From a virus, in the IMG/VR virus record IMGVR_UViG_3300032047_000012, positions 1 through 60,695 of that record: a stretch of DNA of 60,695 nucleotides; one strand, written 5' to 3'. Below, piece after piece: positions 8,420 to 43,989 of the stretch. Within the stretch, counting starts at the first letter, position 1, and the number at the start of each line of letters is the position of its first letter. The translations under genes were made by a program, and so were the position numbers. Below the pieces are notes generated by a model. It had not been told where the DNA came from and made no database searches. It saw only the letters and a list, made by a program, of their open reading frames with translations.

Positions 8420-9408
8420 TAGCAATCTTCTCCAAATGGTGGGATAGAATCAATGTTGTCATAAATCTTATCCATATCACTATCGCCAACGAAGTCGTCG
8501 CAATTGACTTTGATGTGACCTCGCTTGCTAAAGTCTGTCTGATATCCAAGCCGACAGAGGGCGCTGGCATCTATTTCACTGTCAACATAAATTCTTAAGT
8601 GATTGAGGATGCTAGTCTCGTTGACCTCTTCTTCTTGAATATCTTCTATCTCGTCTTTATACATTCCATCGACAATAGAATCTTCCGTATCACGAGGAAA
8701 GCGAAGTGGCAAAAGAATCTCCTCATTTGTATCTACGTCTTCCTCAACAACAAAGAATTCAATGTCATAATTCTCTGAAAGAGAATCTGTGTGTAATTCA
8801 TCAATCTCCAGTATTATGTCTTTATGTTCAATTCTTATTGCCGTATTGTTCTGAAAAGTTCCCTCATCTGTAACTGCGGATGAGTTATGGTCGTGGGCAC
8901 CATCATTTGCAACGACGGATACCTTATATTCTAGGTCTTCTAAGTTCATTTGTGGGATTTGAAGTGTCTGCTTTCCATCTCCTGAACTTGTAATTAACTG
9001 TTGTTGAAAATTTGCTCCATGAAGTGTAACATCCCAAGAGGGTGCATTATCAGAAGTCAGGGCGCTTCGTCCAAGAGGGGTGGAAAGTGCATAATGCTTT
9101 TCTTTAGTTGCCTGAAAAGAATCTTTTAACTTCTTTTTACCAGCCCTTGACTCCTCTATTTGTCTCTCAATCTCTCTCTCTAAACTAGTGTAAGTTGTTT
9201 GAACCCGAAGTCTCGGAGTTTGCTCTAGGATTCTCGTTTGACTATAATTTTGTTCTTCAATCGCACCTGCATACTCTGAATCATAAATAATATCATCGTC
9301 AAAAAAAGCGTACAGGGCTGGTTTAAACTTTCCCTTTGACAGGAGGTATTTTCCATAGGAAGTAAGTTCTATCTCCATTACTTCTTCTTTTTGATTCTTG
9401 AAAGTCAT
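8419..9408 (-). CDS. Virion structural protein, 329 aa
   Basis: The start ATG overlaps the stop of the 4004-aa gene as ATGA, with GGGGA upstream; an in-frame ATG ten codons later (MEIELTSYGKYLL) is a possible alternative and begins the conserved-looking part. The N-terminal segment YGKYLLSKGKFKPALYAFFD followed by acidic residues reads like a family found beside large tail proteins of marine phages. The C-terminal third is strongly acidic. It shares a 1-nt stop/start overlap with the 1038-aa gene. Role inferred from position. Confidence 0.55.
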   Translation of the reverse strand: MTFKNQKEEVMEIELTSYGKYLLSKGKFKPALYAFFDDDIIYDSEYAGAIEEQNYSQTRILEQTPRLRVQTTYTSLEREIERQIEESRAGKKKLKDSFQATKEKHYALSTPLGRSALTSDNAPSWDVTLHGANFQQQLITSSGDGKQTLQIPQMNLEDLEYKVSVVANDGAHDHNSSAVTDEGTFQNNTAIRIEHKDIILEIDELHTDSLSENYDIEFFVVEEDVDTNEEILLPLRFPRDTEDSIVDGMYKDEIEDIQEEEVNETSILNHLRIYVDSEIDASALCRLGYQTDFSKRGHIKVNCDDFVGDSDMDKIYDNIDSIPPFGEDC

Positions 9409-12400
9409 TCTTCGTCCCCTGTTCTCTCATATTGTTGACGAGGGTCAACCTCTTTTTCAGAGTTAACCTCTACTTGAATCATCTCCAACATTGTGAAGTA
9501 GTCATATGGGTAATTATACCCGTATTCAGGTTCTTTCGTGCCAACCTCAAAATCAAATTTGAATCTGCTGTCATCTCTTGAATCTTGGGTCATCTTGTAG
9601 TAGCTTTTCTCCGCCTTTCTCTTTACCTTGAAAGTCATCCAGCGAATACCCTCTGGTAGTTCTCCCATATTTCCAAAGAACTCGTGCTTGTTGATTTCGT
9701 GGTCAATTTCAACAGAGTCAAGCATTGCTTTTTTCGCAATCTTTGGCTGCACGCCCTGCCAAATGTTAGAAAGATCTTCTCTATCAAGCGTGTGCTTGAA
9801 TTCAAAGAAATACATTACAAATGGATCTTGGTTCTCAAAGGTTTCAAAGTCGTAAAGTGGCGGAACATTGTACTTTTTCATACCTTCAATCATATTCGTT
9901 ATAGAAGTTTGTCGAATTTCTTCTCCTGCCTCGTTTGTATATATAACACCATTGATGTTGTGTTTGCGCTCTTGCTCCCTATATTCTAACTTATTAATCT
10001 TGATAAAGTTCTTATCGTCGACCAGTACGGTAGCAGGACTGCCAAGTGCTCGAATGGGCTTGTCCAAGAAAGGTATCATTACAACTGCTTCTGTTATTTC
10101 TTTTTCGTCAGCGACTCGTCCTACTTGCTTGGTCTCTGGTGTGAAACCACAAACCTCAATAAGTGAATTTTTTGAGTCGGAAGTGCCCTGTGGAAAACTT
10201 TCTCTTATAGAAATTGTTACTCCATTTCCGTCTTGCTGTTTGCCGTAGCCTGCCCAAATGCCTGAACCAGTTCTTTTGTCTTTTATGAACCTTTCTGTAT
10301 TTTGAGTGTTCAAATAAGAGGATGTGTAATCATAAGTACCAGAGTCAGTTGTCTTGCTCAAAGTTTCCTTTGACTCCTTGTTGATCCCGAGTGCATCCAA
10401 GGTTCCTTCGTCTGAAGCGTTGGAGGAATCCGAGAAATCAAATAGAGGGCATTCGAATTTGGTATAGATAACCCAAGTATCAAGTTCCGTATTGTTTGCT
10501 GAACTTATGGCTGTTGGGCTTCCATCAGCATCAAATTCTTGCCTGCTGATCTTTGTCTTTCCAAATAAGTTAATACTCGAATCAAGTGGCATCTTTGACG
10601 TCCAAGCAGCAGAGTTTTCAAAATCTCCGTCGAATGGGTCTTGCGTGGATCCAGCACCAGTATCCGAAGTGTTCGATAGATTCTTCCCTCGGAATAAACT
10701 AGCAGCCTGTTTATTTTCATACTGAACTGTTGATTGTTCTAAAATCTCGTCCAGCGTGTATTTTTTAGTTTCTGTTGCTGTGAATGCAATTCTCGCCACT
10801 GACTCTCCATAGAAATAAGGAGGAGTATATGGAGCATATGCTGGGTCTTCAATCTTTTCAAACGAGCCAGATTTAGGGTCGATAAACAACCAGTCTTCAG
10901 TTGTGTTGACATAGCCGCTGGGTGGTCCAAAGTATCGACCGCCGAGTGAGCCTGGGCTTCTAACTACTGAAGACTCCTTACTTTGTCGTAAAGCAACATC
11001 CATGTAATAAGTAGAGCCCGAGGTCATTGCTGAAAATTCGTTTTCTGGTCTTGAACTAAATGAAGATAGTTGCTCTTCTTTTATAAAGAATTTTACGGTT
11101 TCTGACAAGAAGTTGTTCATTGCTAGTTCATATCTAAAGTCTTTCTTTCCTGCGGAATCTCCACTTAATTCGAAGTAAGGGTAGCAATATTCGTCATAAT
11201 TGCCAGTCGAGGGGATTGTCTCGAAGAATGAGTTATAATAAGATGAATTCATCAAAAAATGTTGATTACTCTTTTTCTCTACATAAATCTCTACTGACGG
11301 GTCTGGCTTGTATCTCTCGTTGTTAGTCCCATCAAGCAAATATTCAACGGGGTTTAATAAAGATTCAAAAGGGAGTCGCTTATTTGGCGAATTAGTAGTA
11401 ACGAGAGTGTCGAGTTTTTGACCAAAATCCAGTTGATGAAACTGACCGTAAAGGTGACTAACAACATCTGCTCCTGTGGGGATAGTATCTCCAATCCTAG
11501 CGGGGTCAAGACTTCCTAAAGTATAAGGATCTACAACATCTGCTCGGTGAAGCCTAAACCAGTATGGAGTAGCGTCTTTTAAATATTTTGTTTGAGGGTT
11601 GCCGCTGGTATCGAAAACCTGAATTGTTTGACCAAAATAACTTGGCTCCATTCCGCTCTCATTTGTATATGTTACCCAGTCACAAGCGATGCCTGCCTTG
11701 ATTGAGTTGTAGAGAATACCAGGAGCAAAGAAGTGTTGTAATGCTGCTTGAATTGCCTGGTCTTTATAAACCTTTTCGTTGTGAAGAATATCTGGTGAGA
11801 CTTTTTCTACGAACAAGTTTGCTAATTGTACTGTTCTATCTTGCGGATAAAACCCTTCATAAGGAAGAAGCTTCTTTATAGCATTTACTTTTAATCTAAC
11901 CTTCTTTGTAGTTTCTAGTCCAAGTTCGTCGTGCTTTGCGTCGGCAGCTTCAATAAAATTGATGTCATCCGTATGAACATAAGAGTTAAAGAACTCCTCA
12001 TCCCACTGACCTTGGGTTACAACCTTGTCGTAACTTGGAACGCCGATTCTATGCCAAACAGAAAGGCTTGCTTCTATCAACTGTTGTTTTGCTACGGTAT
12101 AATTTAATTCGAAATCTACCAGGTTGATATTGGGGGAATTCGCACTCCCCTTCACATGAATCGCTCTCGGCGTAGAGGTATCACTAGAGACGTCGAATTC
12201 GTCGTTATCTACGGTCGCAGGCACTGGTATAGAAACAGACCCAAATGGGGACCAGGTAGTCTGTATCTCTGTGGTCTCGTACAATCCATTTCCAACAATT
12301 TGACCATTTGCAACAAGTTCATTTACGTTGTTTGGAACGCCATTATTGTATATTGCAGCAATAGATGATGAAGGTAAAATGCCTCTAAACATTGTAAATT

Positions 12401-15400
12401 CGTCAAGAAGACCTCTGAATCTGTTACTAGACGCCTCCATTCCTAGCCTTGCGACAAATGCGTGTTCCATATTTCTAAGTTGTAGGTTATCAGTAAATTC
12501 AGAGGCATCGTAATCTTCGAACCAAGGTTTAGTCCCACCATGCTTCCACTGACCGATTGGACAAGGAGAATATCCCTTAATAGTAGACCTACCTGACCAA
12601 TTTACATCCTCTAATTCTCGAATATGAACTCCATAAAGCTCCTCACCGTTGAGCCACATTTTTATCAAAAAGTTTAAATTAGGGTTGGCAATACTGTCTG
12701 TCTCTGGTGGGACTACTTGCAAGATTATATTATTCATCTTCCCGTTTTCTAAAAATGCCACAGAGCCGTCAGATTTAAAGAAAGTGTAAACGGTAGAGTC
12801 GTCGTTTACAGTTTGCCCTGGGAGTCCATTATCCGTATTATCAGTTACAACGAAGGTTAAACCAAGATTTCTGTAGTCTGAACCTGTAGATTCTCCATCA
12901 GAGTAGTAATATTGAGAAAATAGGCAAACTCTGTTTTCGCCTTCAGTGTCAAATAAACTCCATACACATTTGGAAGTACTTGTATAAGTTTCTTCTGGTT
13001 GAGCCCAGATGGAAATCGCAATTGGGTCTGGAGTGTCTGGTAAAATCCCACCTACAAGATCTGTAAAAGTCAAGGCGTTGGGACCCTGGGGTGTAGCACC
13101 TGGTGTTGTGGATTCGTCGTTAGAGAAGTTATCCAGCGTAATATCCAGGTAATCGAGAACCGAAGAAATAAGATTAAACTTACCTGCTGCGCTGATTCCA
13201 TCCTGGTAAGGTTCAATAGAAATATAATTCTCAACATCTGATGCAAATATCTCCACTTCGGAGTTTACACTGTTTGTGATATCAAAATTACTACCAGCAG
13301 GACTGTGGATCGGATTGTATCCAAAGAAGCCTTCGGCGTTGTTCTTTACGAGTGCAGTGTCCGTAGAAGACGTCGGATAAGCGGCGATGGCTAATGAGTC
13401 ATCTTCCTTTTTGAGAGAATAGAATGTAGAAGTTTCTTTTATAGAAGTTCCGCTTGATAAAGTATGGGACTCTCCGTCGTGGCTTGCTCCGTCAAGAGTA
13501 AGGAAATCATAATTCTTTGTTCTAAAATTACCGCCGTTCTCTAAAATGTACTTGTCCATATGCTCTGATATTCTGAACTCGGATACAAGACCATAGTTTT
13601 GTGCTGCAAGTTTGACTTCTTCTGAAAAGGAATCATAGTCGTTGTAGTTTGCTTTTTGACCAGAAGTAATAGGCTTTCTATTTATCCAACCTTCTGATTC
13701 TTTATAATTCTCATTATAAGGGTTATGGTAAAGCTGCGGTGAAGGAATCGGTGCTGTTTTGTTTCTAGTAATTTCGCTTGAAAAATACACAGGTACAAAA
13801 TCGCTAGAAGTTGCCTGTGGTTCGCAGATGCCTTCCAGACCCAAGAAAGAGCCTGTTGAACTTGTACCATTCAATGGGTGAGAAGAATCGGTCAAGTCCA
13901 AGTCTTTTCTTGTAATCATATGGCGCATCCTGGCTTCGCCCATATAAGTCAAGTCACCAATAACTTTGTAATACTCATTATCTGTAGAGTCTGTCTGGTG
14001 GAAGTGAAAGCTATCCATAACATCTACTGAAAACTTCTGCTTGAACAATCTCTTAAACTCAGGAGTCATTTCATACCCAAGTTTTGTTGTGTTAGAACAC
14101 TTGACTCTATCAAACATTTTGTCTTTCCAAAAGAACTTATAAGTATCGAACTTTGTTCGTGTTCTTGTCTTTCCAAGACCAACGTTTTTATGCTTTGGAA
14201 AGATAATCTCTCTTGCGACTGAACTAGAAAAGAGGAGTTCTGCCTTCTTGAAGATTTCCATTAAAGTCTCAGAAAACCCCTCTCCACCTGTCTTATTAAT
14301 ATCGACGGCACGAGTTAACATTTCGTTTGAGAACATTTCCAAGTTGTTGGAATAAGAGTAGCTTATAGGGTTGGAATTTGTAACAATACTGCGACGCCTG
14401 ACTTCCATGCGCTCTGGAGACTCTAGTTCTCCACTTTCTTCACGAATAAATGTATCGTATCTTTCATTTAAGACATGGTGAGTATTTGGTTTATTCCAGA
14501 CAACTGCTGGTTCAATATAAGAAGTTACGGTTCTTTCTGTGATCCCAACGCCAGAAGCAGGAACTAATTGAGAATAAGTGTTGGTCCTTCTTTGATTCAT
14601 AACTGCTGCTTTTTCAACATTTCTTATGAATCGCCAGCCTCCGCCTTGGAAGTCAGCATATGGAGCATCATAACCTTCGTTGCCCTTTTGGACGTGAATC
14701 TCGTCGTAGTATCCGCTAAACATAACTGGAATAGAGCCAGAAGCACACTGATGGTGGGGGTGTATATAATCGGCAGCACCTGTTCTGTATTTATCATAAT
14801 CTATTGACGCAGTAACAAAAGCGTATTGTAAATCTGACCTTGGTATCTGGTGGCTTACATAAGCGTTATCATAGTCTGTCGTACAGCCTGTGTCTAATGG
14901 TCTAAAGAAAGCATTTCTATTGACCTTGTGAACGGAAGGTAAGACTGGGCTAGAACTTTCATAACCTTGTGACCCTTCGTGGAACCCACTATGAGTATAA
15001 AGCCTCTTTGCGTAAGCCGAGCGTACATCCGAGTTCCTATTGTTTATTCCTGAATATGGGCTGAATTCTTCTGCGATTGCGTCAAGGTAACCTCTTGTCA
15101 TTGTAAGAGACTCGCCAGGAGCAGAGAACCTTTCTACGATAACGTGCTCTGACCTTCCTCTGTCTGGTAAAGTGAAACCTGCACTTCGCTTCCTTCTGCC
15201 TACAAAATCTATGATAGCAGTTGATTCGTCGGCTGGATCTGTACCACTATGTTCGTTACCCACTACGAACGGAGATTGATTCATCTTCGATCCAAAAAAC
15301 CTTGATGTGAACTCAATGCCCGTTGGGGTGCCGTGATTTGTCAGAACCGAGTCTTGGGCATCGTGAACTAATTTCCACCAAGAGATTATATTAGAATAGG

Positions 15401-18400
15401 AAGATAATATACTTAAGTCAAAATCATTCTGATTGTATATTTCAGTTACTTCTCCCTGTGATAGAACCTTGTCGTAAATCGCAGTACTTCTCATTTTTCC
15501 TTCATAAGAATAACCTAAACGAAGTACATTTCCCATCGCCTGCATCTCGTCGTAGACACCAGAGGTGCCTACAGAGACTGAACTTTCTACTGAATTTATA
15601 TATATTTTGACGGCAGATGACGGTAGAGCATTCCAATCCCCATTGTATGTTACCGCTATATGATACCATATACCAGGAGTAGGTGAAAAACTAGCATCAG
15701 CATAGGCAAATGATCCACCAGTCAACTGTAGTGTCAGACCATAGGAGGATGAATAAGACAGTTGATATTCTGTAGATTTCTCTAGTAATCTACTTAAGGC
15801 GTCGAGGGGAGAGGTAAAATTCACCCACATAGAAATTGTAAACGGGTCGTCATTGTCATTGTTATTTTGATTCGTAAATGATAGTGAGGAATCAGATGCT
15901 ACATCTATCTTGTCGGTGCTTTCAAAGAGCGCATATCCTTCAAGGTCATAATCGCCTAGTTGTCTCTCTGGACTTAACTTAGTTATGAAACTATTGTTTT
16001 GGGTTCTGCCAGATGTCTGAACTACTTCATAGTCTCTTGTATAATTGCCCAAAGGAGAGTTGGTTGTCGTGTTCGTCTTTATATTTCTAATGTTGACAGG
16101 GCGTTTGGCTACCTCGTCTCTTGTATATCTTGCTGCTGGATTATTAGAATCAACCTCTTGTGGGTGCTTCAAAATGCCAGAATCATCTAGGTAAAACTCT
16201 GGTCTGTCCGCAGGTGTCTGTTCTGTAAAATGTATATGCCTGTGTTGATTTCCACCAACCCAAGTCTCCGTGAATGGACCCTGCATTGGTATCTCTGCGT
16301 CATCGCCATAAGAGTCGTTGTGGTGTCCCGATATAACTGCCGTAGTGTCTATACCTGCGTCACGGTCTCTGTATCCGTAGTAAGGATAGATAGTATCACC
16401 ATCGAAGGTACTTGTTAGATTAAGTTCTGTGTCAGATATTGTGACTGTTACAGACCTCTTCACTGTGTAAAGTTTCTTCCACTCTTCATAAGTTACTGGA
16501 TTTGTTGCCAAAGTTGGTGTGATGCCGACAGTGGCTGGGTTACCTGGGATTATTCTCGTTGCTGCTCTGATAAAAGCATTTGGGTCTTTCGTCTTCGCAG
16601 AATAGTTAACTCCGCCGTGGACGCTCTTGGCTATATCTAGGTTTAGCTTGTAAGGTTTGGAGAGGGCTCTATTGGCAAAAGTTCTGCCCTCGTAAGTTGC
16701 GCCTGCTGGTGTCCTAAGGACAGGCTTGCTTTCTTCTACGAAATTCTTTGCAGGAGCGACCCCTCGGTCGACGACTTGAACCATTCCTTCTGTTGTTCTT
16801 GTGGCGACTTTTCTAAGTATCTCTCTATTATCATCGACATCAGAGTTACCAGTTGGAATGTCGGAGGCACTGACTCGCTGGTCCTTCCAAAGAAAAGTGT
16901 CCCTGCCTCCAGAAAAGCTACTATAACTTCCCGAATCGTAAGCAGGAGTCTGTCCTGAAAATTCTATAGTAATTGTAGTATTTCCCTGTACGCCTTCATT
17001 GTCTTGCACAAGGGTGACTGAGTTATCAGCAGAGATAGCTGAGATAGCGAGAGATGTAGTTGCAGTGATCGCTGATACAAACTCTGCCGCTATTGCTGTT
17101 GTACTTGACATTCCATTTACTTGGACCGCTATGTTGTTTCCAAAAATGACTTGACCAGTAGTATAAGTATTGTCATCATCAAATACAAAATTCCTTGTAG
17201 TTGAATTAGAATCTATCAGAGTAATGAATTTATTATCATAGTCAGAAGCTGTTGAGCTTGTGAAATTAATAAAAGCTGATGCAAAAGTAGGAGTGCCGTC
17301 CTTCCAACTATAAGTAAGTTCGTTGATACCTCGCATAACACCCATTGGAGGTTCGCCTGGCATCTCTAATGTTGGAAATTTGGTCCAGTATTTGTTACGC
17401 TCAAGAACGTGAGACTCAACCATATTCCTTAAGTCTGCTGAAAAGTTGCTTGATACTGGAATAAGCTCTTGTATCATAAGCCCAATAGAAGAGTCTATCC
17501 ACTTATAAAGCTCTATGTACTTTTCTAAACTTGGGACATTATTGACTTTTTCAAAATATCGTGCTCTGAATTTTTCAAGAGTCTTATACTCCATTCTGTA
17601 TCTATTGACTGGTTGACCGATAAGGTCATTGAACTCAACGATAGTAGCGAACAGATTTATCATATCGTCGGATATGACTTGATACATACTCTTTTCTGCT
17701 GCAAAAAAGTGAGTTGTTATTTGAGCATCTTTTGTAAAAGTTAAATCGTCCTGTGAGCGGATCTCAATAAGGTCTTCTGAATTTATTACTTCTGGTGGTC
17801 TGTGCTTCGCAGAGTGAACGTATTCTCTATTGACAATTTGTTTATCGTCATTTGTGAAGTGTTTGCCTCTACCAGTTACTTGACGCCCTACTAGGTTTGT
17901 GAACCAACCGTAAGTGCCAGAATACTCTACGTCCGATAACGGAGTTTCTGAAACAACTACTGCCGTACCTTGAAGGGTACCGTTATTTGAACCCACATAG
18001 TCTTTTATTCCGTTAGCACCCGTTGTATCAAGGTCATCTCCCATTTTCCACCAAGATATAATATCGCCATATACAGAAGCCTTCGACAAGTCTTTGACTT
18101 TTCCGCCGTTGTATATTTCCGTGACCTCGGCTGATGACAGAGCCTTATTAAATACTGCGGTGTCGGCGATGTAATCATCAAACGTGTTCCCAGTTGGAGT
18201 ATCTGTGCCGCCGATGGTTGTAACGATATTGTAGTTGGGCATGCCAGAATATTTAGTATTCGTCACGGTCTTGCCTGTGGTAATCTCTGTGCCATCTTTA
18301 TAAACTTTAAGACCTGAAACACTCTCACTTCCGTCATATGTAGCTGTTATAAAATGCCAATTATTAGAAGTTAGGTTTGCAACAGAGGAATTAAAATAGA

Positions 18401-21400
18401 GTCTGTTTGTAGTTGAGAATGCTGTGATTTCTGCTGCATTATAGTCTTTGTCAGCATATAAATAAACCTTTAATTTCCCGTTTACGTGCTCTACTAACCA
18501 CTCACCGAGTTGAGGCGCTGTGCCATCTCTGTCTCTTCTAGATATGATAACACCTGAATCTGTTGCGATGTTGCCGACCTTTACCCAAGCGGATATAGAA
18601 AATGGTCTGTCTGTGCCTGCACCATCTGTAAACGAGAGGTCATCGGAGTCTGCGATGTCTATCGTATCTCCGTCAGCGAGGAACTGAATTGATTTTTGAT
18701 TAACATCAGATTCAGTTATCGTATTACCCTGTGAAAGGTCATTTACAATAAATTCTCCACTTCCGTCTGTTGTTGAGACCTCGGAAAAGTCCCAGTGCAT
18801 TGCAAGTGTGTCCCTCTTGGGAACTTGTATCGTTGCAAACTCTGCATCGTGGCTATAAGCTTCTTCGCTTGGATGAAGGCGACCAAAGTTTGAAGCGTCA
18901 GAAGCGTGCGCTCTTATTTCCTCGTTCGTAACATTATCATACCAGAATAAGGTAGAAGAGATTTTTACCCTTGTATCATTATCCAGTGTATCTGTTTCGG
19001 CTGGGGTGTGCTCTGGGTCTCCAGAGCTACGCAAGGCACCAATGGATACATATTTATCTTTTGCTAGTAAAGCTCTTGCGCTTGCTTCCGTAACATCTGC
19101 TGTAACTGTTTCTTCATCCTCTACAACGTCTGCGAGCATTCTAACACAATATAACTCTGCTCTATAATCGGTCGTAGAGCCCCCAGAAACGACGCCTGAT
19201 AGACTTTTCTTGGGAACTAGTCTAACTGCTAGGTTCCACTTTGAGTTTTCGTAAACTGACTTGAAAAATTGAGTTTCTAATGTTTGTCCGTCCATCGTAA
19301 GAACGAACTTTACGTTCTCGGATGTAGCGTCAGAACCTTCTTTTACCGCTTTGAGATCAAATAAATCATTAGCGGAATATGAAGTGGTGTATTCACCCAA
19401 GTAGGCAATATGCTCTTCAAGATTGGTCGGGACATCGTACCCTGGATGGTCTGATGATATTCTTTTTGGAAAAATAACTTCTGTTTCAAACGTGAATGAG
19501 AGATTGGGCTGCCTATCATATCCAACACCTCTGATATAAGAATTGGAACTTGCGTTAGACGGGTCTTCCTTTGTATAAACAAGACCTTGGTCTCTATCTG
19601 CATTGTTGAAGTCTACAAACTTTTTCTTTATAGCAGTTGTTCTTCTTGAGTCCTCCAGCAGATAGTCTGCTCCGTCGGAGTACATATTAACCTTCAGGAG
19701 TTCGTCGTCAATACCAAAACATCGGATAAGGTTTCTAAATGCCTTTTCAGTTCCCTTTGACTTATAAATATAAGAAAGGTTGTTATAGATGTTTTGGTAA
19801 ATGGTGTTCTTTACGTCTTGAAGCTTTTCTTCAAACTTCTCTTGCTCTCCACGAGAAAGGATTTCCTCAAAGGCACTTGCTTCTGTGAAAAGGTCTGGAA
19901 CAATCATTCCCGCTGATTCTAATGTTCTTCTAATCAAAGAGTAAGGTTTATTTGTCCTTTCCTCTAGCGTGTGATATTCAATATCCTTGAGACTCACAAG
20001 CTCTTTAATTTTCACCTGGGCTGAATCAAAGTAACTACTCATTACCTGGGTTAGTTCTTTTGTATTTTCGCCCGAAGCTTCATCTTCTTCAATAATCCAA
20101 GCTGGGAGCGTATGATAAATGCTTGAGTTATTATTGTAATCATAAACAAGACCCGTATCCATATAAAGTTTTTTTGCAGAAATGAAATCGGGATGAGATG
20201 AATATATAATAAAGTCTTTTTCTTCTGCTACTTCGAACAAACCTGATTCGTCAAAAGCTGAAGTCGTGGCTCTCGCTGTGGTGGTATAATTTGTTATTGT
20301 TCCGTTTGAAATTCTTCCAGAATAGTCTAGAACTGTTGAATCGATTGCAGCATCAGTTGTGATACCTTCATTAAACTTGTAATAGATACCAAGGTCTACT
20401 TTTCTGTTCTCTGTATTATACTTATTATCGTCAGTATTAGTTCCGCCGTTGACGTTGGTCAGCCAGTAGCGACCTATCTCTTCTGCTGTCCTAACTCTTT
20501 TCCAGAAACGAAACTCGTCAAGGTAAAGACCGTTGACCGTGTTGGTTGATGCTGCGGTGCCGTTGGCTAAAAGATATGTCGTTTTTTGAGATACCGTACC
20601 GAGGTTTGTACCACTGGTTATTGTGCCTACAATAGTTCCGTTCTTATAAATCTCTGCTTTTATATTTGAACCAGAATTAATAAATGAAAATGCATAGTGA
20701 GCCCAAGTAGTTCCGAGCAAGTCAGTTATTGTTGTTTCACCAGAAACTCCACTCAATCCAACATCAGCGTCGTCGGTATAAACTAGTGAAACCTTATTAG
20801 TGGTAGTGTTAAACTGAACCTGTATTCTGTTCCCATTTTCATTTCCTACAACTACTGGATAAACATCTCCTGAAACCGAAGCTTCTAGTTTTGCCCAGAA
20901 TTCAATAGTGTTCCCGAGGGTTCCGTCAATATACAGGTTAGAATTTCTATAAATGGAAGTGTCCCAAATATTTGAGTTACCCTGCTTTACTGGATATTGC
21001 TTTGAGAGTTCTTCTTTTTCGCCCTCTGTGATGCCTGGCTGGTTGTTTGGACCGCCCTTTACAACAATAGATTGGTTTGTTCCTAATTTTACGTGACCTG
21101 CTGCTTTAGGGTAAGCGTTGTCAAGAATCCAAAGGTCTAGCTCGGATGAGTCATATAACCACTTCTCTTTTTCAGAAAGTGAGCCGTCGTATGGATAAGT
21201 CTGGTATACTCTGTTGAAAGAATCTTCATAATATTTTTGAGCGGAACCATAGAAGGCAAAGTTCTCTGGTTTTGAATAATCAATGTGAGAATGAAACTTA
21301 TTATTTGCTCTTACTACATCTCTTACGAGTTCTGTTGATTCAAGATCTGATTTTATCTTTGCTTCTTGACTTTTAGTAAGAACCTTGTTTCCCTTTTTGA

Positions 21401-21419
21401 AAAGGTCTTTCGTACTCAT
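9405..21419 (-). CDS. Giant LamG-domain virion protein, 4004 aa
   Basis: A single uninterrupted frame of about 12 kb, one fifth of the window. Four concanavalin A/LamG-like modules are visible at roughly residues 175-360, 930-1140, 1860-2030 and 2790-3030; each has a strand like ISAWVK or IEFWAK, a central W(A/H)HYAF or WHFITATYDG strand, and a closing FDEFRFW-like segment with EIYN. Two modules also end with a near-repeat IISWWK. Around residues 1390-1500 is another beta domain. LamG folds bind glycans or proteins, so a host-recognition or baseplate-to-fibre role is likely. The first gene after the 492-aa protein; its stop overlaps the next ATG. No frameshift seen. Confidence 0.75.
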   Translation of the reverse strand: MSTKDLFKKGNKVLTKSQEAKIKSDLESTELVRDVVRANNKFHSHIDYSKPENFAFYGSAQKYYEDSFNRVYQTYPYDGSLSEKEKWLYDSSELDLWILDNAYPKAAGHVKLGTNQSIVVKGGPNNQPGITEGEKEELSKQYPVKQGNSNIWDTSIYRNSNLYIDGTLGNTIEFWAKLEASVSGDVYPVVVGNENGNRIQVQFNTTTNKVSLVYTDDADVGLSGVSGETTITDLLGTTWAHYAFSFINSGSNIKAEIYKNGTIVGTITSGTNLGTVSQKTTYLLANGTAASTNTVNGLYLDEFRFWKRVRTAEEIGRYWLTNVNGGTNTDDNKYNTENRKVDLGIYYKFNEGITTDAAIDSTVLDYSGRISNGTITNYTTTARATTSAFDESGLFEVAEEKDFIIYSSHPDFISAKKLYMDTGLVYDYNNNSSIYHTLPAWIIEEDEASGENTKELTQVMSSYFDSAQVKIKELVSLKDIEYHTLEERTNKPYSLIRRTLESAGMIVPDLFTEASAFEEILSRGEQEKFEEKLQDVKNTIYQNIYNNLSYIYKSKGTEKAFRNLIRCFGIDDELLKVNMYSDGADYLLEDSRRTTAIKKKFVDFNNADRDQGLVYTKEDPSNASSNSYIRGVGYDRQPNLSFTFETEVIFPKRISSDHPGYDVPTNLEEHIAYLGEYTTSYSANDLFDLKAVKEGSDATSENVKFVLTMDGQTLETQFFKSVYENSKWNLAVRLVPKKSLSGVVSGGSTTDYRAELYCVRMLADVVEDEETVTADVTEASARALLAKDKYVSIGALRSSGDPEHTPAETDTLDNDTRVKISSTLFWYDNVTNEEIRAHASDASNFGRLHPSEEAYSHDAEFATIQVPKRDTLAMHWDFSEVSTTDGSGEFIVNDLSQGNTITESDVNQKSIQFLADGDTIDIADSDDLSFTDGAGTDRPFSISAWVKVGNIATDSGVIISRRDRDGTAPQLGEWLVEHVNGKLKVYLYADKDYNAAEITAFSTTNRLYFNSSVANLTSNNWHFITATYDGSESVSGLKVYKDGTEITTGKTVTNTKYSGMPNYNIVTTIGGTDTPTGNTFDDYIADTAVFNKALSSAEVTEIYNGGKVKDLSKASVYGDIISWWKMGDDLDTTGANGIKDYVGSNNGTLQGTAVVVSETPLSDVEYSGTYGWFTNLVGRQVTGRGKHFTNDDKQIVNREYVHSAKHRPPEVINSEDLIEIRSQDDLTFTKDAQITTHFFAAEKSMYQVISDDMINLFATIVEFNDLIGQPVNRYRMEYKTLEKFRARYFEKVNNVPSLEKYIELYKWIDSSIGLMIQELIPVSSNFSADLRNMVESHVLERNKYWTKFPTLEMPGEPPMGVMRGINELTYSWKDGTPTFASAFINFTSSTASDYDNKFITLIDSNSTTRNFVFDDDNTYTTGQVIFGNNIAVQVNGMSSTTAIAAEFVSAITATTSLAISAISADNSVTLVQDNEGVQGNTTITIEFSGQTPAYDSGSYSSFSGGRDTFLWKDQRVSASDIPTGNSDVDDNREILRKVATRTTEGMVQVVDRGVAPAKNFVEESKPVLRTPAGATYEGRTFANRALSKPYKLNLDIAKSVHGGVNYSAKTKDPNAFIRAATRIIPGNPATVGITPTLATNPVTYEEWKKLYTVKRSVTVTISDTELNLTSTFDGDTIYPYYGYRDRDAGIDTTAVISGHHNDSYGDDAEIPMQGPFTETWVGGNQHRHIHFTEQTPADRPEFYLDDSGILKHPQEVDSNNPAARYTRDEVAKRPVNIRNIKTNTTTNSPLGNYTRDYEVVQTSGRTQNNSFITKLSPERQLGDYDLEGYALFESTDKIDVASDSSLSFTNQNNNDNDDPFTISMWVNFTSPLDALSRLLEKSTEYQLSYSSSYGLTLQLTGGSFAYADASFSPTPGIWYHIAVTYNGDWNALPSSAVKIYINSVESSVSVGTSGVYDEMQAMGNVLRLGYSYEGKMRSTAIYDKVLSQGEVTEIYNQNDFDLSILSSYSNIISWWKLVHDAQDSVLTNHGTPTGIEFTSRFFGSKMNQSPFVVGNEHSGTDPADESTAIIDFVGRRKRSAGFTLPDRGRSEHVIVERFSAPGESLTMTRGYLDAIAEEFSPYSGINNRNSDVRSAYAKRLYTHSGFHEGSQGYESSSPVLPSVHKVNRNAFFRPLDTGCTTDYDNAYVSHQIPRSDLQYAFVTASIDYDKYRTGAADYIHPHHQCASGSIPVMFSGYYDEIHVQKGNEGYDAPYADFQGGGWRFIRNVEKAAVMNQRRTNTYSQLVPASGVGITERTVTSYIEPAVVWNKPNTHHVLNERYDTFIREESGELESPERMEVRRRSIVTNSNPISYSYSNNLEMFSNEMLTRAVDINKTGGEGFSETLMEIFKKAELLFSSSVAREIIFPKHKNVGLGKTRTRTKFDTYKFFWKDKMFDRVKCSNTTKLGYEMTPEFKRLFKQKFSVDVMDSFHFHQTDSTDNEYYKVIGDLTYMGEARMRHMITRKDLDLTDSSHPLNGTSSTGSFLGLEGICEPQATSSDFVPVYFSSEITRNKTAPIPSPQLYHNPYNENYKESEGWINRKPITSGQKANYNDYDSFSEEVKLAAQNYGLVSEFRISEHMDKYILENGGNFRTKNYDFLTLDGASHDGESHTLSSGTSIKETSTFYSLKKEDDSLAIAAYPTSSTDTALVKNNAEGFFGYNPIHSPAGSNFDITNSVNSEVEIFASDVENYISIEPYQDGISAAGKFNLISSVLDYLDITLDNFSNDESTTPGATPQGPNALTFTDLVGGILPDTPDPIAISIWAQPEETYTSTSKCVWSLFDTEGENRVCLFSQYYYSDGESTGSDYRNLGLTFVVTDNTDNGLPGQTVNDDSTVYTFFKSDGSVAFLENGKMNNIILQVVPPETDSIANPNLNFLIKMWLNGEELYGVHIRELEDVNWSGRSTIKGYSPCPIGQWKHGGTKPWFEDYDASEFTDNLQLRNMEHAFVARLGMEASSNRFRGLLDEFTMFRGILPSSSIAAIYNNGVPNNVNELVANGQIVGNGLYETTEIQTTWSPFGSVSIPVPATVDNDEFDVSSDTSTPRAIHVKGSANSPNINLVDFELNYTVAKQQLIEASLSVWHRIGVPSYDKVVTQGQWDEEFFNSYVHTDDINFIEAADAKHDELGLETTKKVRLKVNAIKKLLPYEGFYPQDRTVQLANLFVEKVSPDILHNEKVYKDQAIQAALQHFFAPGILYNSIKAGIACDWVTYTNESGMEPSYFGQTIQVFDTSGNPQTKYLKDATPYWFRLHRADVVDPYTLGSLDPARIGDTIPTGADVVSHLYGQFHQLDFGQKLDTLVTTNSPNKRLPFESLLNPVEYLLDGTNNERYKPDPSVEIYVEKKSNQHFLMNSSYYNSFFETIPSTGNYDEYCYPYFELSGDSAGKKDFRYELAMNNFLSETVKFFIKEEQLSSFSSRPENEFSAMTSGSTYYMDVALRQSKESSVVRSPGSLGGRYFGPPSGYVNTTEDWLFIDPKSGSFEKIEDPAYAPYTPPYFYGESVARIAFTATETKKYTLDEILEQSTVQYENKQAASLFRGKNLSNTSDTGAGSTQDPFDGDFENSAAWTSKMPLDSSINLFGKTKISRQEFDADGSPTAISSANNTELDTWVIYTKFECPLFDFSDSSNASDEGTLDALGINKESKETLSKTTDSGTYDYTSSYLNTQNTERFIKDKRTGSGIWAGYGKQQDGNGVTISIRESFPQGTSDSKNSLIEVCGFTPETKQVGRVADEKEITEAVVMIPFLDKPIRALGSPATVLVDDKNFIKINKLEYREQERKHNINGVIYTNEAGEEIRQTSITNMIEGMKKYNVPPLYDFETFENQDPFVMYFFEFKHTLDREDLSNIWQGVQPKIAKKAMLDSVEIDHEINKHEFFGNMGELPEGIRWMTFKVKRKAEKSYYKMTQDSRDDSRFKFDFEVGTKEPEYGYNYPYDYFTMLEMIQVEVNSEKEVDPRQQYERTGDEE

Positions 21420-37979: not shown

Positions 37980-38399
37980 TTAGTTATTATTGGTGGGGTT
38001 TTTCTTGGCTCGTGGTTTTCTAGTTCTTGTAGAAGGTTTACGAGTTCTAGTGGTTTTTGGCTTTGGATCAGTAACCTCTGCTGGTGCTGGTTCTGGGTCT
38101 GAACCTGCGTGGCTTAAAGTTAAATCTTCTTGTTTTAATTCTTCTGGTTTGAAATTCTTTATTGCTTCTTCTCTTAATGATTTTTTTTCTATGATTCCGT
38201 CGCCGATATCAAAAACGAATAAAACCTTGCCCTCTGATATTGTATTTATTGCCTTCAGAGCGCCTACGTTAAATTTAAGAGAAATAAGACGTTTTCTAAC
38301 ATCATCTTCACCAATATCAACTCTCGCCTTTGAACTAGTATAAACAAATAATTTCTTTTTTACTTTTATTTCATCTATCTTTATATTAAATCTCTTCAT
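37980..38399 (-). CDS. Small protein with a basic, histone-like tail, 139 aa
   Basis: The first ~95 residues form a compact alpha/beta region with no recognised family. The last ~40 are Pro/Lys/Arg/Thr-rich, with the repeat RTRKPSTRTRKPRAKK, like the tails of H1-like DNA-binding proteins. GGGAGAAG ribosome site, and the start overlaps the zincin gene end by 14 nt. A DNA- or RNA-binding role is plausible from the tail, but the domain in front is unknown. Confidence 0.6.
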   Translation of the reverse strand: MKRFNIKIDEIKVKKKLFVYTSSKARVDIGEDDVRKRLISLKFNVGALKAINTISEGKVLFVFDIGDGIIEKKSLREEAIKNFKPEELKQEDLTLSHAGSDPEPAPAEVTDPKPKTTRTRKPSTRTRKPRAKKNPTNNN

Positions 38400-39081
38400 C
38401 TTCTTCTCCCTGGGTTGATATTTGTCTCAACTTAATAAATAGCTCTGGACTTATTTCTTTAATATAAGCCTCTTCTCCCTGGACGAAAAACATTTCAAAA
38501 GCCGTTGCGAAATATTCAGATACAGATACAGACGCATAAGGTGTAATAAATAAACCTTTTGTGAAATTAGTTAATTTCTCATATCCGACCTCATAATGTA
38601 AGAACTCATCAAAAGCTTTAGAATATTCTGATTCATATTTTAACCTATTTGGTACGTTTATGTCATGAGCAGATAGTAAATCAATAAATCTCTTTTTCTT
38701 CGCCAAATATTCTAGTTCGATTTTTGTATCCGCATATAAATCATAATCATACATTTTTTCTACGGCATGGGCTACTTCGTGAATAATGTCTTCAAAGAGT
38801 TGCTCGTCAGAAGGCTGTTCATTTGTAACATAAATGCCGCCGTCTAAAAATGCTGCTCGAATACCTCTTTGTTCTAGTTCTTTGAATTTACCTACCATAA
38901 TAGTCTCTACTTCATAAAATAAATGAGGAGGTATTGTGTCTTCAATTTCCATTATTACATTAGTGATATCTATTTCTGCTGGAACAGGATCTTTAACGAA
39001 TATATTAATAGTTCCGAAAACTGTAAACTCTTTTCGTTCAGATAAATTTTTAGTGTGAGAATTTTTTATATATTTATTCAT
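38386..39081 (-). CDS. Zincin metallopeptidase-like protein, 231 aa
   Basis: The zinc-binding motif HEVAH is at residues 101-105 in the helix EDIIHEVAHAVEKM, with a candidate third ligand glutamate in the later helix SVSEYFATAFEMFF (about residue 195). This is the HExxH...E layout of gluzincin-type peptidases. No signal peptide, so it should act in the cytoplasm or virion. Its target is unknown; processing of virion proteins or a host target is possible. Followed by the basic-tail gene with a 14-nt overlap. Confidence 0.7.
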   Translation of the reverse strand: MNKYIKNSHTKNLSERKEFTVFGTINIFVKDPVPAEIDITNVIMEIEDTIPPHLFYEVETIMVGKFKELEQRGIRAAFLDGGIYVTNEQPSDEQLFEDIIHEVAHAVEKMYDYDLYADTKIELEYLAKKKRFIDLLSAHDINVPNRLKYESEYSKAFDEFLHYEVGYEKLTNFTKGLFITPYASVSVSEYFATAFEMFFVQGEEAYIKEISPELFIKLRQISTQGEEDEEI

Positions 39082-39112: not shown

Positions 39113-40450
39113 TTAAAGAATCTTGGAGCCGAGTGTTGCGATGGCAGAGCGTTCGCCCTTCTTAAGAGTTATGTGCCCTGTTATCTCGTGCTCTTTCATT
39201 TTCTCAACAGCATAAGTCAAGCCGTTGGTTCTCTCGTCGATATAGATGTTATCTATTTGCTCGACGTCGCCTGTAAGAACAAGCTTTGTGCCTTCACCTA
39301 CACGAGTTACAATAGTTTTGAGTTCGTGTTTTGTAAGGTTCTGGGCTTCGTCAATAATAATGAAAGCATTAGAGATAGAGCGCCCACGAATGTAGGTAAG
39401 TGCCTCTACTTCAATCTTTCCCATTTCCATATATTCTTGTAGAGTAACAGAATCGTCAACCATTAGGAATTTTAGATTATCCTGAATAGGTTTCAGCCAA
39501 GGCTCCATCTTCTCTTCCATTGTTCCTGGTAAGAATCCGATGTCTTTTCCAAGAGGTTCTACTGGGCGAGAAACAACAAGTCTTGTGTAGATAGATTTTT
39601 GAGTACTCATTGGGTGGTCGTCAAGCGTCTGTTGTAAACCTGCTGCGATAGCACACAAAGTTTTACCAGAACCAGCCTTTCCAACAAGAGACACAAGAGA
39701 GATAGAAGGGTCCATTAGAAGCTCAAGAGCATAGGTCTGCTCCTTGTTTCGTGGTCCAATGCCCCAAACCTTGCGTTTGTTTGGAATTTTTAAAAGTGGC
39801 GTGTTATAATTCTTAAAACGAGCGAGTGCTGACTTCTTTTCGTTTATTTCGGAAGTCATTACAAGGAACTCATTTCCGTTTAATTCTTCTTCACCTTCTT
39901 CGGGCATAGGAGCATAAATGTCGTCGCCTGCATAGAATTTATCTATCTCTCTGTCTTTCATAACGAGGTCTCTATAGCCAGCGTAGATTTCGTCAAGAGA
40001 CTCTATGACCTGGCTTGCTTGGTAGTCGTCTGTTAGAAGACCAATAGAATCACATTTTACTCTCAAATTGATATCCCGAGAAACAAGAGTTACTTTGCAT
40101 TCAGGATTTTCTTCTTTTACAGTAAGTGCTGTGGCGATAATTTGATTGTCTGGGTCATTTTTATCCCAGTCAATAGGAAGTAATTCTGGATTGTAACCTC
40201 TTGCTGTTACGATACCATAGCCCTCGCCCATCTCTACACCTTCGTGAAGAGAGCCGAGTTGTCTTAGTTCGTCAAGGGTTCTGATAATACTTCTTGCATT
40301 TGAGCCAACTGAATCTTGGCGTTTCTTGTGTTTATCGATTTCTTCCAAAACTTTGAACGGGATAATAATATCATTATCCTCAAAAGCTCTCAGCGATGAA
40401 AAGTCTGTCAAATAAACACTGGTGTCAATAACATAAATTTTCTTTGTCAT
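39113..40450 (-). CDS. phoH: PIN-PhoH fusion ATPase, 445 aa
   Basis: The start is the ATG at 40448-40450 (MTKKIYVIDTSVYL), which has AGAAAGGAAC upstream; an in-frame start 11 codons earlier lacks this. Residues 1-140 are a PIN nuclease-like domain, with D9 and later acidic residues. Residues about 240-445 are the PhoH ATPase: Walker A GKAGSGKT near 255-263, Walker B FIIIDEAQN near 368, then TGDVEQID. This two-domain form is common in bacteria and phages and suggests an RNA helicase/nuclease. phoH is frequent in marine phages, but phosphate regulation is not shown here. Confidence 0.88.
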   Translation of the reverse strand: MTKKIYVIDTSVYLTDFSSLRAFEDNDIIIPFKVLEEIDKHKKRQDSVGSNARSIIRTLDELRQLGSLHEGVEMGEGYGIVTARGYNPELLPIDWDKNDPDNQIIATALTVKEENPECKVTLVSRDINLRVKCDSIGLLTDDYQASQVIESLDEIYAGYRDLVMKDREIDKFYAGDDIYAPMPEEGEEELNGNEFLVMTSEINEKKSALARFKNYNTPLLKIPNKRKVWGIGPRNKEQTYALELLMDPSISLVSLVGKAGSGKTLCAIAAGLQQTLDDHPMSTQKSIYTRLVVSRPVEPLGKDIGFLPGTMEEKMEPWLKPIQDNLKFLMVDDSVTLQEYMEMGKIEVEALTYIRGRSISNAFIIIDEAQNLTKHELKTIVTRVGEGTKLVLTGDVEQIDNIYIDERTNGLTYAVEKMKEHEITGHITLKKGERSAIATLGSKIL

Positions 40451-40536
40451 AAAGTGTTCCTTTCTTACCAATAAATAGGTCAAGTTCTTTTTTATTCTTT
40501 TTCTTCTATTTACTTATAGAGCCCATAAGGAGACCA
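40451..40536 (+). promoter_or_regulatory. Divergent intergenic region between phoH and the lipoprotein protease
   Basis: This is the only place where transcription diverges. On the plus strand TTACTTATAG (40510-40519) lies 7 nt before the AAGGAG ribosome site (527-532) of the protease gene; on the minus strand CTATTTATTG (40469-40480 region) precedes phoH. Both fit the promoter-like motif seen elsewhere, each on the coding strand of the gene it precedes, which argues that the motif is directional and functional. Confidence 0.45.
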
Positions 40537-41436
40537 ATGGCTATGATAAATAGAATTTTTCTTATTCTACTTCTTGGACTTATCGCTGGCTGCACCCACC
40601 AAGTAAAGAATCCTGTTGACATTAAAAAATCATTTGTAATGGTTCACAAGGAAGTTGAGGTGCAAGTTTGTGGTGAAAACGAAGAAAGTAAAACTAATGA
40701 ATGCAAGACCTTGATGAATATGAACTCTTCTGGTTCAGGTGCGATTGTCTGGAATGAATACAGTCTAGGCAACCCTCCTAGAACCCTTGTCCTCACAGCA
40801 GACCACGTTTGTGAAGACCCTGAGATGGAATTCAGTAATTTTGACCCGAGAATGATGATTCATATTAGAGAGAATTTAAAGTTTAAAAAAGAAGTAAAAC
40901 TTATTGCTAATTCCAAGATGTCTGTCACGACCGCTGATGGCAAGACCTATAAGGTAAAGAAACACCCCTGGGTAAGAAATGTTTCAGCGGACACTTGCAT
41001 TGTAGAATCCTCTATAGATAAACCTTCTTTACTTATCGGAAGTAAATTAGGGTTTGGTCAAAAGCTCTTGAATGTTGCTGCACCGAAGGGCATCTTTCAC
41101 CCAAACCAGAGTGGTGGTGGTGTTTACTACACAGATGGAATGTATAATGGTGAATTTATTATGGCACATGAAGGTGGAGGTAGGATTTTTGCAATGTTCT
41201 CTATTATAGCTGCACCTGGTTCAAGTGGCTCACCAGTCGTAAATACAAACGGAGAGATTGTAGGAATGATTCACTCTATTGACTCTCGCTATTGCTCTCC
41301 ACTTACTGGTCAATGTAATAGCCCTGTTAGCTATGGCGCTACATTAGAGCAAATTCGACACACTCTTCTAGAAGCTCTTTCCGCTATAAAGCGAGGTGAG
41401 TCTATCAAGTTTGATTATAAGAAAGTAAGTCAATAA
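40537..41436 (+). CDS. Exported lipoprotein trypsin-like serine protease, 299 aa
   Basis: The only clear plus-strand gene. N-terminal signal MAMINRIFLILLLGLIAGC has a lipobox (IAGC), so the mature enzyme should be lipid-anchored at C19 in the periplasm or outer membrane. Chymotrypsin/trypsin-fold motifs: LTADHVC with catalytic H90 (variant of TAAHC), D152 in SADTCIVE, and S230 in GSSGSP, plus paired cysteines. Strong AAGGAG site. The 3' end overlaps the convergent HNH gene by 7 nt. Likely made late or early to act on an envelope target, for example receptor or exclusion. Substrate unknown. Confidence 0.82.
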   Translation: MAMINRIFLILLLGLIAGCTHQVKNPVDIKKSFVMVHKEVEVQVCGENEESKTNECKTLMNMNSSGSGAIVWNEYSLGNPPRTLVLTADHVCEDPEMEFSNFDPRMMIHIRENLKFKKEVKLIANSKMSVTTADGKTYKVKKHPWVRNVSADTCIVESSIDKPSLLIGSKLGFGQKLLNVAAPKGIFHPNQSGGGVYYTDGMYNGEFIMAHEGGGRIFAMFSIIAAPGSSGSPVVNTNGEIVGMIHSIDSRYCSPLTGQCNSPVSYGATLEQIRHTLLEALSAIKRGESIKFDYKKVSQ

Positions 41437-41945
41437 GCATAAGGGTCTAAATAAATCTTCCAAGCCTTATCGACATTATCAACTAAATTAAAAAACATTT
41501 TTGGTGAAGGCTGCGTTGGCGGGTTTGTAGGAAACATTCCTGCATCTCTCGGTAGTTTATTTGCCTTCTTTTGATTACATCTCTTGCAAGCAGCTACGAT
41601 GTTCTCCCAAGTCTTTGGACCGCCTGCTGACTTTGGAGTAACGTGGTCTATTGTAAGATTAGCTTTTGTGAATCGCTTGTTGCAATATTGGCAGGTGTAG
41701 TTATCTCTTATAAAAAGATTTTTTCTTGTGACCTTTAAGCTAACTCTCGCTTTCTTTACATAACGTGAAATAACAATGACGGAGGGAACTTGAAATTTCT
41801 CTGTGGCTGAATGGGCATAGACGCCTTCTTTATATTCAACAACAGAAGCTCTGTCGTTCATAACCATTGTGATTGCTTCAGTCCAACAGATGACCTGGAT
41901 TGGTCTATAAGAACTGTCTAATTTTAAAACTTTCCAATTCTTCAA
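41430..41945 (-). CDS. HNH endonuclease-like protein, 171 aa
   Basis: Residues about 75-130 form an HNH domain with structural zinc: C85-x2-C88 in NYTCQYCNKR, then LTIDHVTPKSAGGP with catalytic H101, N115 in WENIVAACKRC, and C120/C123. The N-terminal ~70 residues form an extra domain with a DSSYRPIQVICW segment that is common in the bacterial HNH family of this size. It could be a homing-type or restriction-like nuclease, or act in DNA packaging. GGGAGAG ribosome site. It converges with the protease gene. Confidence 0.8.
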   Translation of the reverse strand: MKNWKVLKLDSSYRPIQVICWTEAITMVMNDRASVVEYKEGVYAHSATEKFQVPSVIVISRYVKKARVSLKVTRKNLFIRDNYTCQYCNKRFTKANLTIDHVTPKSAGGPKTWENIVAACKRCNQKKANKLPRDAGMFPTNPPTQPSPKMFFNLVDNVDKAWKIYLDPYAY

Positions 41946-41953
41946 AACTCTCC

Positions 41954-43057
41954 CTAAGAATAGTCTGTCTGAATTACCTCTTCTAGCAACTCAATGTAAC
42001 CATCTACATTCTTTTTATTGTTTGGGTTATATCTCCACATCATCTCTTCGTTCTTTGGACGTTCTTCCAAATAACGCTTTGGGTGCTCATTGATAGCTTC
42101 TTTAAGAGCCTCTGCTCCCTTGTCTACGTCAAAGTCTGGATAATAATAACCATGCTCCTCGAATGTAGGACTATTGTGAACAAAAGGAAGGTTAAGAAAC
42201 ATTGCCTCAAGCTGAAGGTAATTCAGTTCATTGCACCACTGGTGTGAAACAATTGTTCCAGCATAACCTTTGTGTAACAAGAAATTTAAAGCCCACCTTC
42301 CTTCAAAAGACATCTTACCATCCTTTACAAGATCAAACTTTTGACAGAATCTAACAAAGTTATTTTTTTCTTTTAATCTTGAAGCACCTACATTGTAAAC
42401 CTGTTCAACCATATCCTTGTCTTCATTATATAATTTCTCTGAAATTAACATTGGAATAACACAAGTCTTTACAATATAAAGGTTCGATTCTAGAATAGCT
42501 ACATTTTTAAGATTAACGTGGTCTCCGAAATAAGGGTTGTATCCTGCTCTCATATAAGATTGGACTATAACCTCTGGAGACCAAATATAAGGTGCTATAC
42601 TAACAGGTGCCTTTGACATTGCTGATAAAGCACTAGCAGTTCTTTCAAAGTGAGGTGAGGTCCAATAGAAATCAACATCAGGTAAAGTAAAGCCGTCTTC
42701 ACCTGGACCACCATAAATCATAGTGCCCATATCAATAAGAACTTTATTTCCATACTCACAAGAGCCAACTTTGCCTCCGTGACCTCTGAGAATCATTCTA
42801 CAAGTTTCCGTCAAAGAATTGGCACACTGAAGAATTACTTTATATTCTAAAATAGAAACAGTATCTAGTTTTTCAACTGGGACACCTAGTAGATGCTTTC
42901 CATAATGGTTTTCAGACTCTGAAACTAGGTGAATATCATAACCAACATTTTTAAGAAGACGATAAAGAAACCAAACATTTTGTTTCAGTCCATTACCAAA
43001 TAGATTTTCATCAGATTGAGCAGTTATCCCAATCTTTACATTTTTACTTATTTCCAA
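41954..43057 (-). CDS. DUF2827-like glycosyltransferase, 367 aa
   Basis: The N-terminus KIGITAQSDENLFGNGLKQN followed by VWFLYRLLKNVGYDIHLVSE fits the DUF2827 group of GT-B-like glycosyltransferases. Near the C-terminus SHQWCNELNYLQLEAMFLNL is the donor-side segment with a glutamate, then LPFVHNSPTFEEHGYYYPDF. Third glycosyltransferase-type gene of the window. A CTATTTAG motif and GAGGG ribosome site lie upstream. Acceptor unknown. The family call is from memory of the pattern. Confidence 0.65.
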   Translation of the reverse strand: MEISKNVKIGITAQSDENLFGNGLKQNVWFLYRLLKNVGYDIHLVSESENHYGKHLLGVPVEKLDTVSILEYKVILQCANSLTETCRMILRGHGGKVGSCEYGNKVLIDMGTMIYGGPGEDGFTLPDVDFYWTSPHFERTASALSAMSKAPVSIAPYIWSPEVIVQSYMRAGYNPYFGDHVNLKNVAILESNLYIVKTCVIPMLISEKLYNEDKDMVEQVYNVGASRLKEKNNFVRFCQKFDLVKDGKMSFEGRWALNFLLHKGYAGTIVSHQWCNELNYLQLEAMFLNLPFVHNSPTFEEHGYYYPDFDVDKGAEALKEAINEHPKRYLEERPKNEEMMWRYNPNNKKNVDGYIELLEEVIQTDYS

Positions 43058-43602: not shown

Positions 43603-43989
43603 CTAGTCGTCATCAACTAATGGATCTCTAACTGGGTCAGCAACGAGTTCGTCGCCATCATCGAGTGCATCGCCATCTGTATTTGCATTTAATGGCTCTG
43701 TACCTTGTGCTTCTTCAGTTTGACCAACGCCCTGTAGAATGTTACCAGCAGCAACGCCGTCTGTAAGTTCAGCCTTGATTGCTTCTTTACGACCTGCGTC
43801 GTCTGTTGCCAAGTGGTCTTGATCTGGGTCGATAATCCAAGTAAGTAAGTCGGCATCATCGATTGTACCAGCAGCAACACCTGCTTTGAGTGCCGCAATT
43901 GCAGCAGCATCTGTTGCGTAAGTACCAGCAGCAACATCAAGTTTTAGTTTCTGCTTAATACCTTTTTTAATTCTTCTTTGTTTTGACAT
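43603..43989 (-). CDS. Acidic repeat protein with Ca-binding-like motif, 128 aa
   Basis: A basic N-terminus (MSKQRRIKKGIKQKLKLD) is followed by Ala/Gly/Asp-rich sequence in which a short unit (AAG(T/N)-x-x-x-A or GVAAG) recurs three or four times. The C-terminus has NTDGDALDDGDELVADP, very like the Asp-rich loops of thrombospondin type 3 or dockerin-like calcium sites. GGAGG ribosome site and two tandem CTATTTA(C/T) motifs upstream. Possibly a small virion decoration protein or secreted adhesin; function unknown. Confidence 0.6.
   Translation of the reverse strand: MSKQRRIKKGIKQKLKLDVAAGTYATDAAAIAALKAGVAAGTIDDADLLTWIIDPDQDHLATDDAGRKEAIKAELTDGVAAGNILQGVGQTEEAQGTEPLNANTDGDALDDGDELVADPVRDPLVDDD

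Follow-up and report, generated by a model that had tools for sequence, protein, structure and literature searches.

The product of the only large plus-strand gene of the viral DNA studied here is almost certainly an exported lipoprotein whose trypsin-type domain is HtrA/Deg-like, and this gene is very probably a long-standing possession of its lineage, a large clade of T4-like phages that are uncultured and mostly marine. The window analysed is a linear IMG/VR virus record of 60,695 bases, and its Gp6-, gp25- and late-sigma-like proteins identify it as a T4-like myovirus. Nearly all of its genes are on the minus strand, where open reading frames span 94% of the window. When all plus-strand frames of at least 60 aa were compared across the window, the protease frame was the sole large one that does not overlap others (minus-strand frames cover 1% of it), and the next-best non-overlapped frame had only 72 aa. 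This agrees with the initial annotation, which had called it the only clear gene on its strand and had given its frame, coordinates and triad numbering (H90, D152, S230) correctly. The strong ribosome site claimed there is present as AAGGAG, and 45 of 64 relatives have a similar site within the last 22 nt upstream of the start, compared with 3 of 64 for a control stretch. Translation probably begins at the second ATG, as orthologs begin at the second Met.

Table 1. Features of the protease locus and of related records (positions without a record label refer to the window).
Feature	Position	Strand	Remarks
Exported lipoprotein serine protease gene	40537..41436	+	299 aa; second-ATG start at 40543 gives 297 aa
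Lipoprotein signal peptide and lipobox (LIAG before C)	40537..40593	+	C19 = 40591-40593; +2 = Thr
Cys45 and Cys56, probable cross-hairpin disulfide	40669..40704	+	both missing from the same 3/85
Catalytic His90	40804..40806	+	kept in 85/85
Cys92 (His+2) and Cys154 (Asp+2), second probable disulfide, close to active site	40810..40998	+	81/85 keep both
Catalytic Asp152	40990..40992	+	kept in 85/85
Catalytic Ser230 within PGSSGSP	41224..41226	+	kept in 84/85; remaining one is a gap
Shine-Dalgarno AAGGAG	40527..40532	+	SD-like site also frequent among relatives
CTATTTAC, variant of phage upstream element CTATTTAT	40506..40513	+	at -31 of protease
CTATTTAT element 5' of PhoH	40471..40478	-	upstream-region motif count
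PhoH-like ATPase with PIN domain	39113..40450	-	phrog_2765 E 5e-110; PF02562/PF13638; divergent neighbour
HExxH metallopeptidase-like protein	38386..39081	-	conserved at PhoH locus
HNH endonuclease	41430..41945	-	tail-to-tail with protease, in the window's subclade
Trypsin-like protease and vWA lipoprotein, often overlapping	L201:1477-3416, L202:1237-3140, L203:1462-3241, L207:260-2070, L211:1453-3357		
Records with MopE-repeat lipoprotein			G013, G017, G024, G029, G030, G033, G034, G048, G049, G051

Several lines of evidence define the protein. The Trypsin_2 profile (PF13365) matched residues 66-244 over its whole length (positions 1-144 of 144) with E 3.9e-9 and 37.8 bits (cut-off 27.6), and all 62 members aligned matched it at E <= 0.01. 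An AlphaFold2 monomer model built on this 62-row alignment (A3) reached a mean pLDDT of 89.7, whereas an earlier model from three rows was useless (pLDDT 39). The catalytic triad, whose loss among relatives would have spoken against the annotation, is conserved throughout the family (Table 1). The description of an exported, trypsin-fold lipoprotein with an intact triad is backed by the profile match, the structure model and the conservation seen in dozens of relatives. The protein also contains four cysteines (C45, C56, C92 and C154) that are retained together in 81 of 85 members; C92 and C154 are both lacking from the other four, of which three divergent ones lack all four cysteines and one (L103) lacks this pair alone. 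Because members lose cysteines pairwise, the alignment suggests disulfides C45-C56 and C92-C154.

The nearest solved structures are HtrA/Deg proteases (DegP, DegQ, DegS and HtrA1; MEROPS S1C), with Z 21-25 (24.8 to DegQ) at 15-23% identity, and the best PDB profile matches belong to the same group (DegQ/DegP/DegS, E ~1e-11). Chymotrypsin fold, H-D-S triad and export are common to both. On the other hand, the phage protein is lipid-anchored, carries the four conserved cysteines, resides at a phage core locus, has PGSSGSP around the serine instead of the usual GNSGG, and lacks a PDZ domain, none being found by Pfam; the ~55 residues after the end of the Pfam domain were modelled as a helix spanning 270-286 followed by a short tail. 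HtrA proteases recognise their clients through the PDZ domain. Since this defining HtrA/Deg feature is missing, we place the protein in a new phage subfamily of Trypsin_2 proteins and do not count it as HtrA, although it would work like an anchored HtrA protease domain. Trypsin_2 proteins of other phages (the HtrA-like protein of Rhizobium phage AF3, BFVD A0A7G7WW26, and A0A516MAS3, the best match by fold) have the same fold, with 13-20% identity to the window protease. The 'periplasmic serine protease' of Felix O1 was rejected as a counterpart, being a ClpP-class prohead protease.

The N-terminus (MAMINRIFLILLLGLIAG followed by Cys) shows, on inspection, the n-region, hydrophobic stretch and lipobox cysteine (MINRIFLILLLGLIAG followed by C) of an SPII substrate. 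Among 69 distinct relatives a lipobox was called by rule in 57 and by eye in a further 7 (~64/69), whereas in the clade of L023, L026, L027, L045 and L092 the N-terminus resembles a signal but shows no clear lipobox. A PHROG match of the N-terminus to an Rz-like spanin (E 0.008) reflects the signal peptide and lipobox alone and was discarded as an identity. The +2 residue was never Asp in the 57 rule-called lipoboxes. The infected cell would export the protease and tether it by lipid to its envelope, most likely to the outer membrane because the +2 residue is not Asp.

The initial annotation had also proposed that the gene is a recently gained, moron-like cargo. To the contrary, the same locus and orientation were found down to ~26% identity: orthologs with 64% (L002), 59% (L003) and 56% (L020) identity, as well as homologs with 26-28% identity in L023-L028, occupy the same place. 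A profile scan of viral contigs yielded 159 relatives, of which 80 loci (69 distinct) were kept, and in nearly all distinct loci the protease gene was divergent from the adjoining PhoH gene amid opposite-strand genes; it was co-oriented with PhoH in L068 and L077, and L076 had no PhoH in view. In a sampling independent of the protease, with loci fetched via the metallopeptidase, 61 loci included PhoH together with 1.5 kb or more of upstream sequence; the protease was present in 33 and divergent from PhoH in 32 of these. On a 116-row PhoH tree, its presence and absence required 4 changes compared with ~27 after shuffling, one clade of 22 relatives having no copy at the PhoH locus. Absence here means that no protease was seen at the PhoH locus in the sequence examined; one record (G042, locus L189) has a family member elsewhere. 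Protease and PhoH distances were correlated over 85 loci (Mantel r 0.78, a value reached in 0 of 999 permutations), and 30 of 30 records had exactly one copy.

That the gene was recently acquired from a host as an independently transcribed cargo is therefore highly improbable. Such an origin would fit its opposite strand, its own upstream region and the lower identity of its orthologs (64%) compared with PhoH (97%). However, other neighbours diverge equally fast (67% for the metallopeptidase, 51% for the frame at 37980-38399), locus and orientation are fixed across deep divergence, the gene is co-inherited with PhoH, and its G+C content (39.4% versus 39.6% for the window) and GC3 are ordinary. 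It is thus neither missing from close relatives at this position nor atypical in composition, nor is it a recent arrival. A place in the phage core on the same strand had been named as the finding that would contradict the cargo proposal: the gene does belong to the core, but on the opposite strand. A search for relatives in host genomes had been suggested as a check; a scan of bacterial and archaeal genomes gave only short chance-like trypsin matches and no close homolog. Searches with three family members by tblastn against 50,697 phage records found none among cultured phages, megablast of the protease region gave no match, the phage collection searched held no isolate of the protease-bearing clade, and literature searches on phage-encoded lipoprotein or HtrA proteases gave no description of this family. 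The nearest cultured relatives by TerL of close relatives were Flavobacterium phage immuto (46%) and Microcystis phage Mel-JY01 (43%), which are too distant for a host assignment, and this was dropped.

The surroundings of the gene were also examined. The PhoH frame has an ATG start, with a longer TTG version beginning at 40483, and on its far side lie the HExxH metallopeptidase-like protein, an exonuclease and glycosyltransferases. The HExxH protein is conserved beside PhoH clade-wide with invariant H101, E102, H105, D118 and E189, and had no match among cultured phages. The slot 3' of the protease is held by the opposite-strand HNH endonuclease in the window and, in L023-L028, by a J-domain-like (HPD) gene that shares the strand of the protease (L023:5296-6132, L024:1001-1768, L026:2578-3381 and L028:5365-6132). 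A DUF2827 protein (41954-43057; E 1e-70, no PHROG match) shares 96% identity with its L020 counterpart and 71-75% with those of L002 and L003, although these are closer by PhoH, which suggests gene exchange. An acidic, fast-changing protein (43603-43989, and L020:3323-4087) with TDGDxLDDGDE-like calcium-binding-type repeats differs in length among relatives (128 versus 254 aa), and a frame of 4004 aa (9405-21419) is unusually long by the standards of phage proteins. Tubulin/TubZ-like (L043:12072-13223), weakly GAPDH-like (L096:8954-10015) and ClpP (L075:3632-4249) genes were observed close to the protease locus of relatives.

Regarding expression, the gene had been credited with its own promoter-like motif. 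No sigma-70-type promoter was found on the plus strand ahead of it; what does precede it is CTATTTAC, a variant of the phage-wide element CTATTTAT. This recurrent element, (A)CTATTTAT(A), is strongly biased to the gene strand: 68 occurrences 5' of gene starts versus 4 on the other strand (1254 regions, partly redundant), mostly 20-45 nt ahead of the start. The T4-type TATAAATA was rejected as a promoter, being rarer on the gene strand than its reverse complement (10 versus 30). In the window, CTATTTAT precedes the gp25-like baseplate wedge gene, PhoH and others, and it may be a promoter element of the phage clade, possibly a late one. Late expression would suit a lysis or egress factor that, as infection ends, cuts envelope proteins tethering the outer membrane. 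We consider this unlikely, given that enrichment of the element before family genes is weak (23/64 versus 11/64 on the opposite strand) and that no endolysin, holin or spanin was recognised adjoining the protease.

A possible partner emerged elsewhere in these phages. In five of five records having a short lipoprotein with a vWA domain (DxSxS motif), its gene adjoins that of an exported trypsin-like protease. In L201 this protease belongs to the window protease's own family, whereas those of L202, L203, L207 and L211 are exported Trypsin_2-type proteins of the same phage clade but of a different subfamily and at a different locus; the A3 profile matched these only weakly (E 7e-14, 5e-11 and 0.0025 for three of them). 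Proteases of this other kind occur in some sister phages without the PhoH-linked gene. In addition, lipoproteins of ~575-780 aa with EICDGxDNDCDGxIDEG (Cu-binding_MopE-like) repeats were found in 10 of 34 records tested, near-complete or large ones bearing the protease (L213-L224), and several of those inspected contain a vWA domain. The short vWA lipoproteins end in DTGDTG tails. Both these tails and the MopE-like repeats recall Myxococcota surface proteins, which we take as a clue to the host.

It is conceivable from these data that the protease processes or quality-controls the phage's own exported vWA and MopE-repeat lipoproteins, as HtrA/DegP do in the host periplasm, and the closeness of its fold to DegP/DegQ would agree with such a task. 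However, the PhoH-linked configuration keeps the protease and the MopE-repeat gene mostly 9-17 kb apart where measurable, neither a vWA nor a MopE gene was seen in the window or its closest relatives in the sequence present in the records, and the client-recognition part of HtrA, the PDZ domain, is lacking. We think this possible but rather improbable. Also speculative is a core envelope module in which an outer-membrane lipoprotein protease and a phage vWA lipoprotein would together remake the infected cell's surface, trypsin subfamilies and vWA lipoproteins varying by subclade.

Export, lipid anchor and HtrA fold together point to an enzyme that would cut envelope proteins of the infected cell, and we favour, with a probability of roughly 0.55, a protease that acts on the envelope in general. 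Once anchored, it would cleave envelope or periplasmic proteins during infection. The main benefit would most likely be a changed host envelope, through superinfection exclusion or remodelling of receptor or envelope, and the next would be maturation or quality control of the phage's exported lipoproteins, such as those with vWA domains. A putative role at the host surface or in exclusion is plausible, while superinfection exclusion in particular is put forward only tentatively. Our ranking of functions would accordingly place exclusion or host-surface remodelling ahead, processing of phage lipoproteins close behind and lysis last. Superinfection-exclusion lipoproteins have been described for phages, such as Llp of T5 and Ltp of Streptococcus phage TP-J34 (PMC9586334, PMC3952083). 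Like the protease, these are phage-encoded lipoproteins of the host surface or envelope, a likeness of kind for which no homology is claimed. Lipoproteins of the Llp and Ltp type act by binding, which blocks the receptor or injection, and not by cutting.

Phage lipoproteins are usually viewed as late, dispensable add-ons. In this study, a lipid-anchored HtrA-type protease was found to be a conserved and locus-fixed gene of a large phage clade, which implies that these phages may regularly cleave host-envelope proteins when they infect. With the vWA lipoprotein, repeatedly paired with an exported trypsin, there is a concrete, testable partner.
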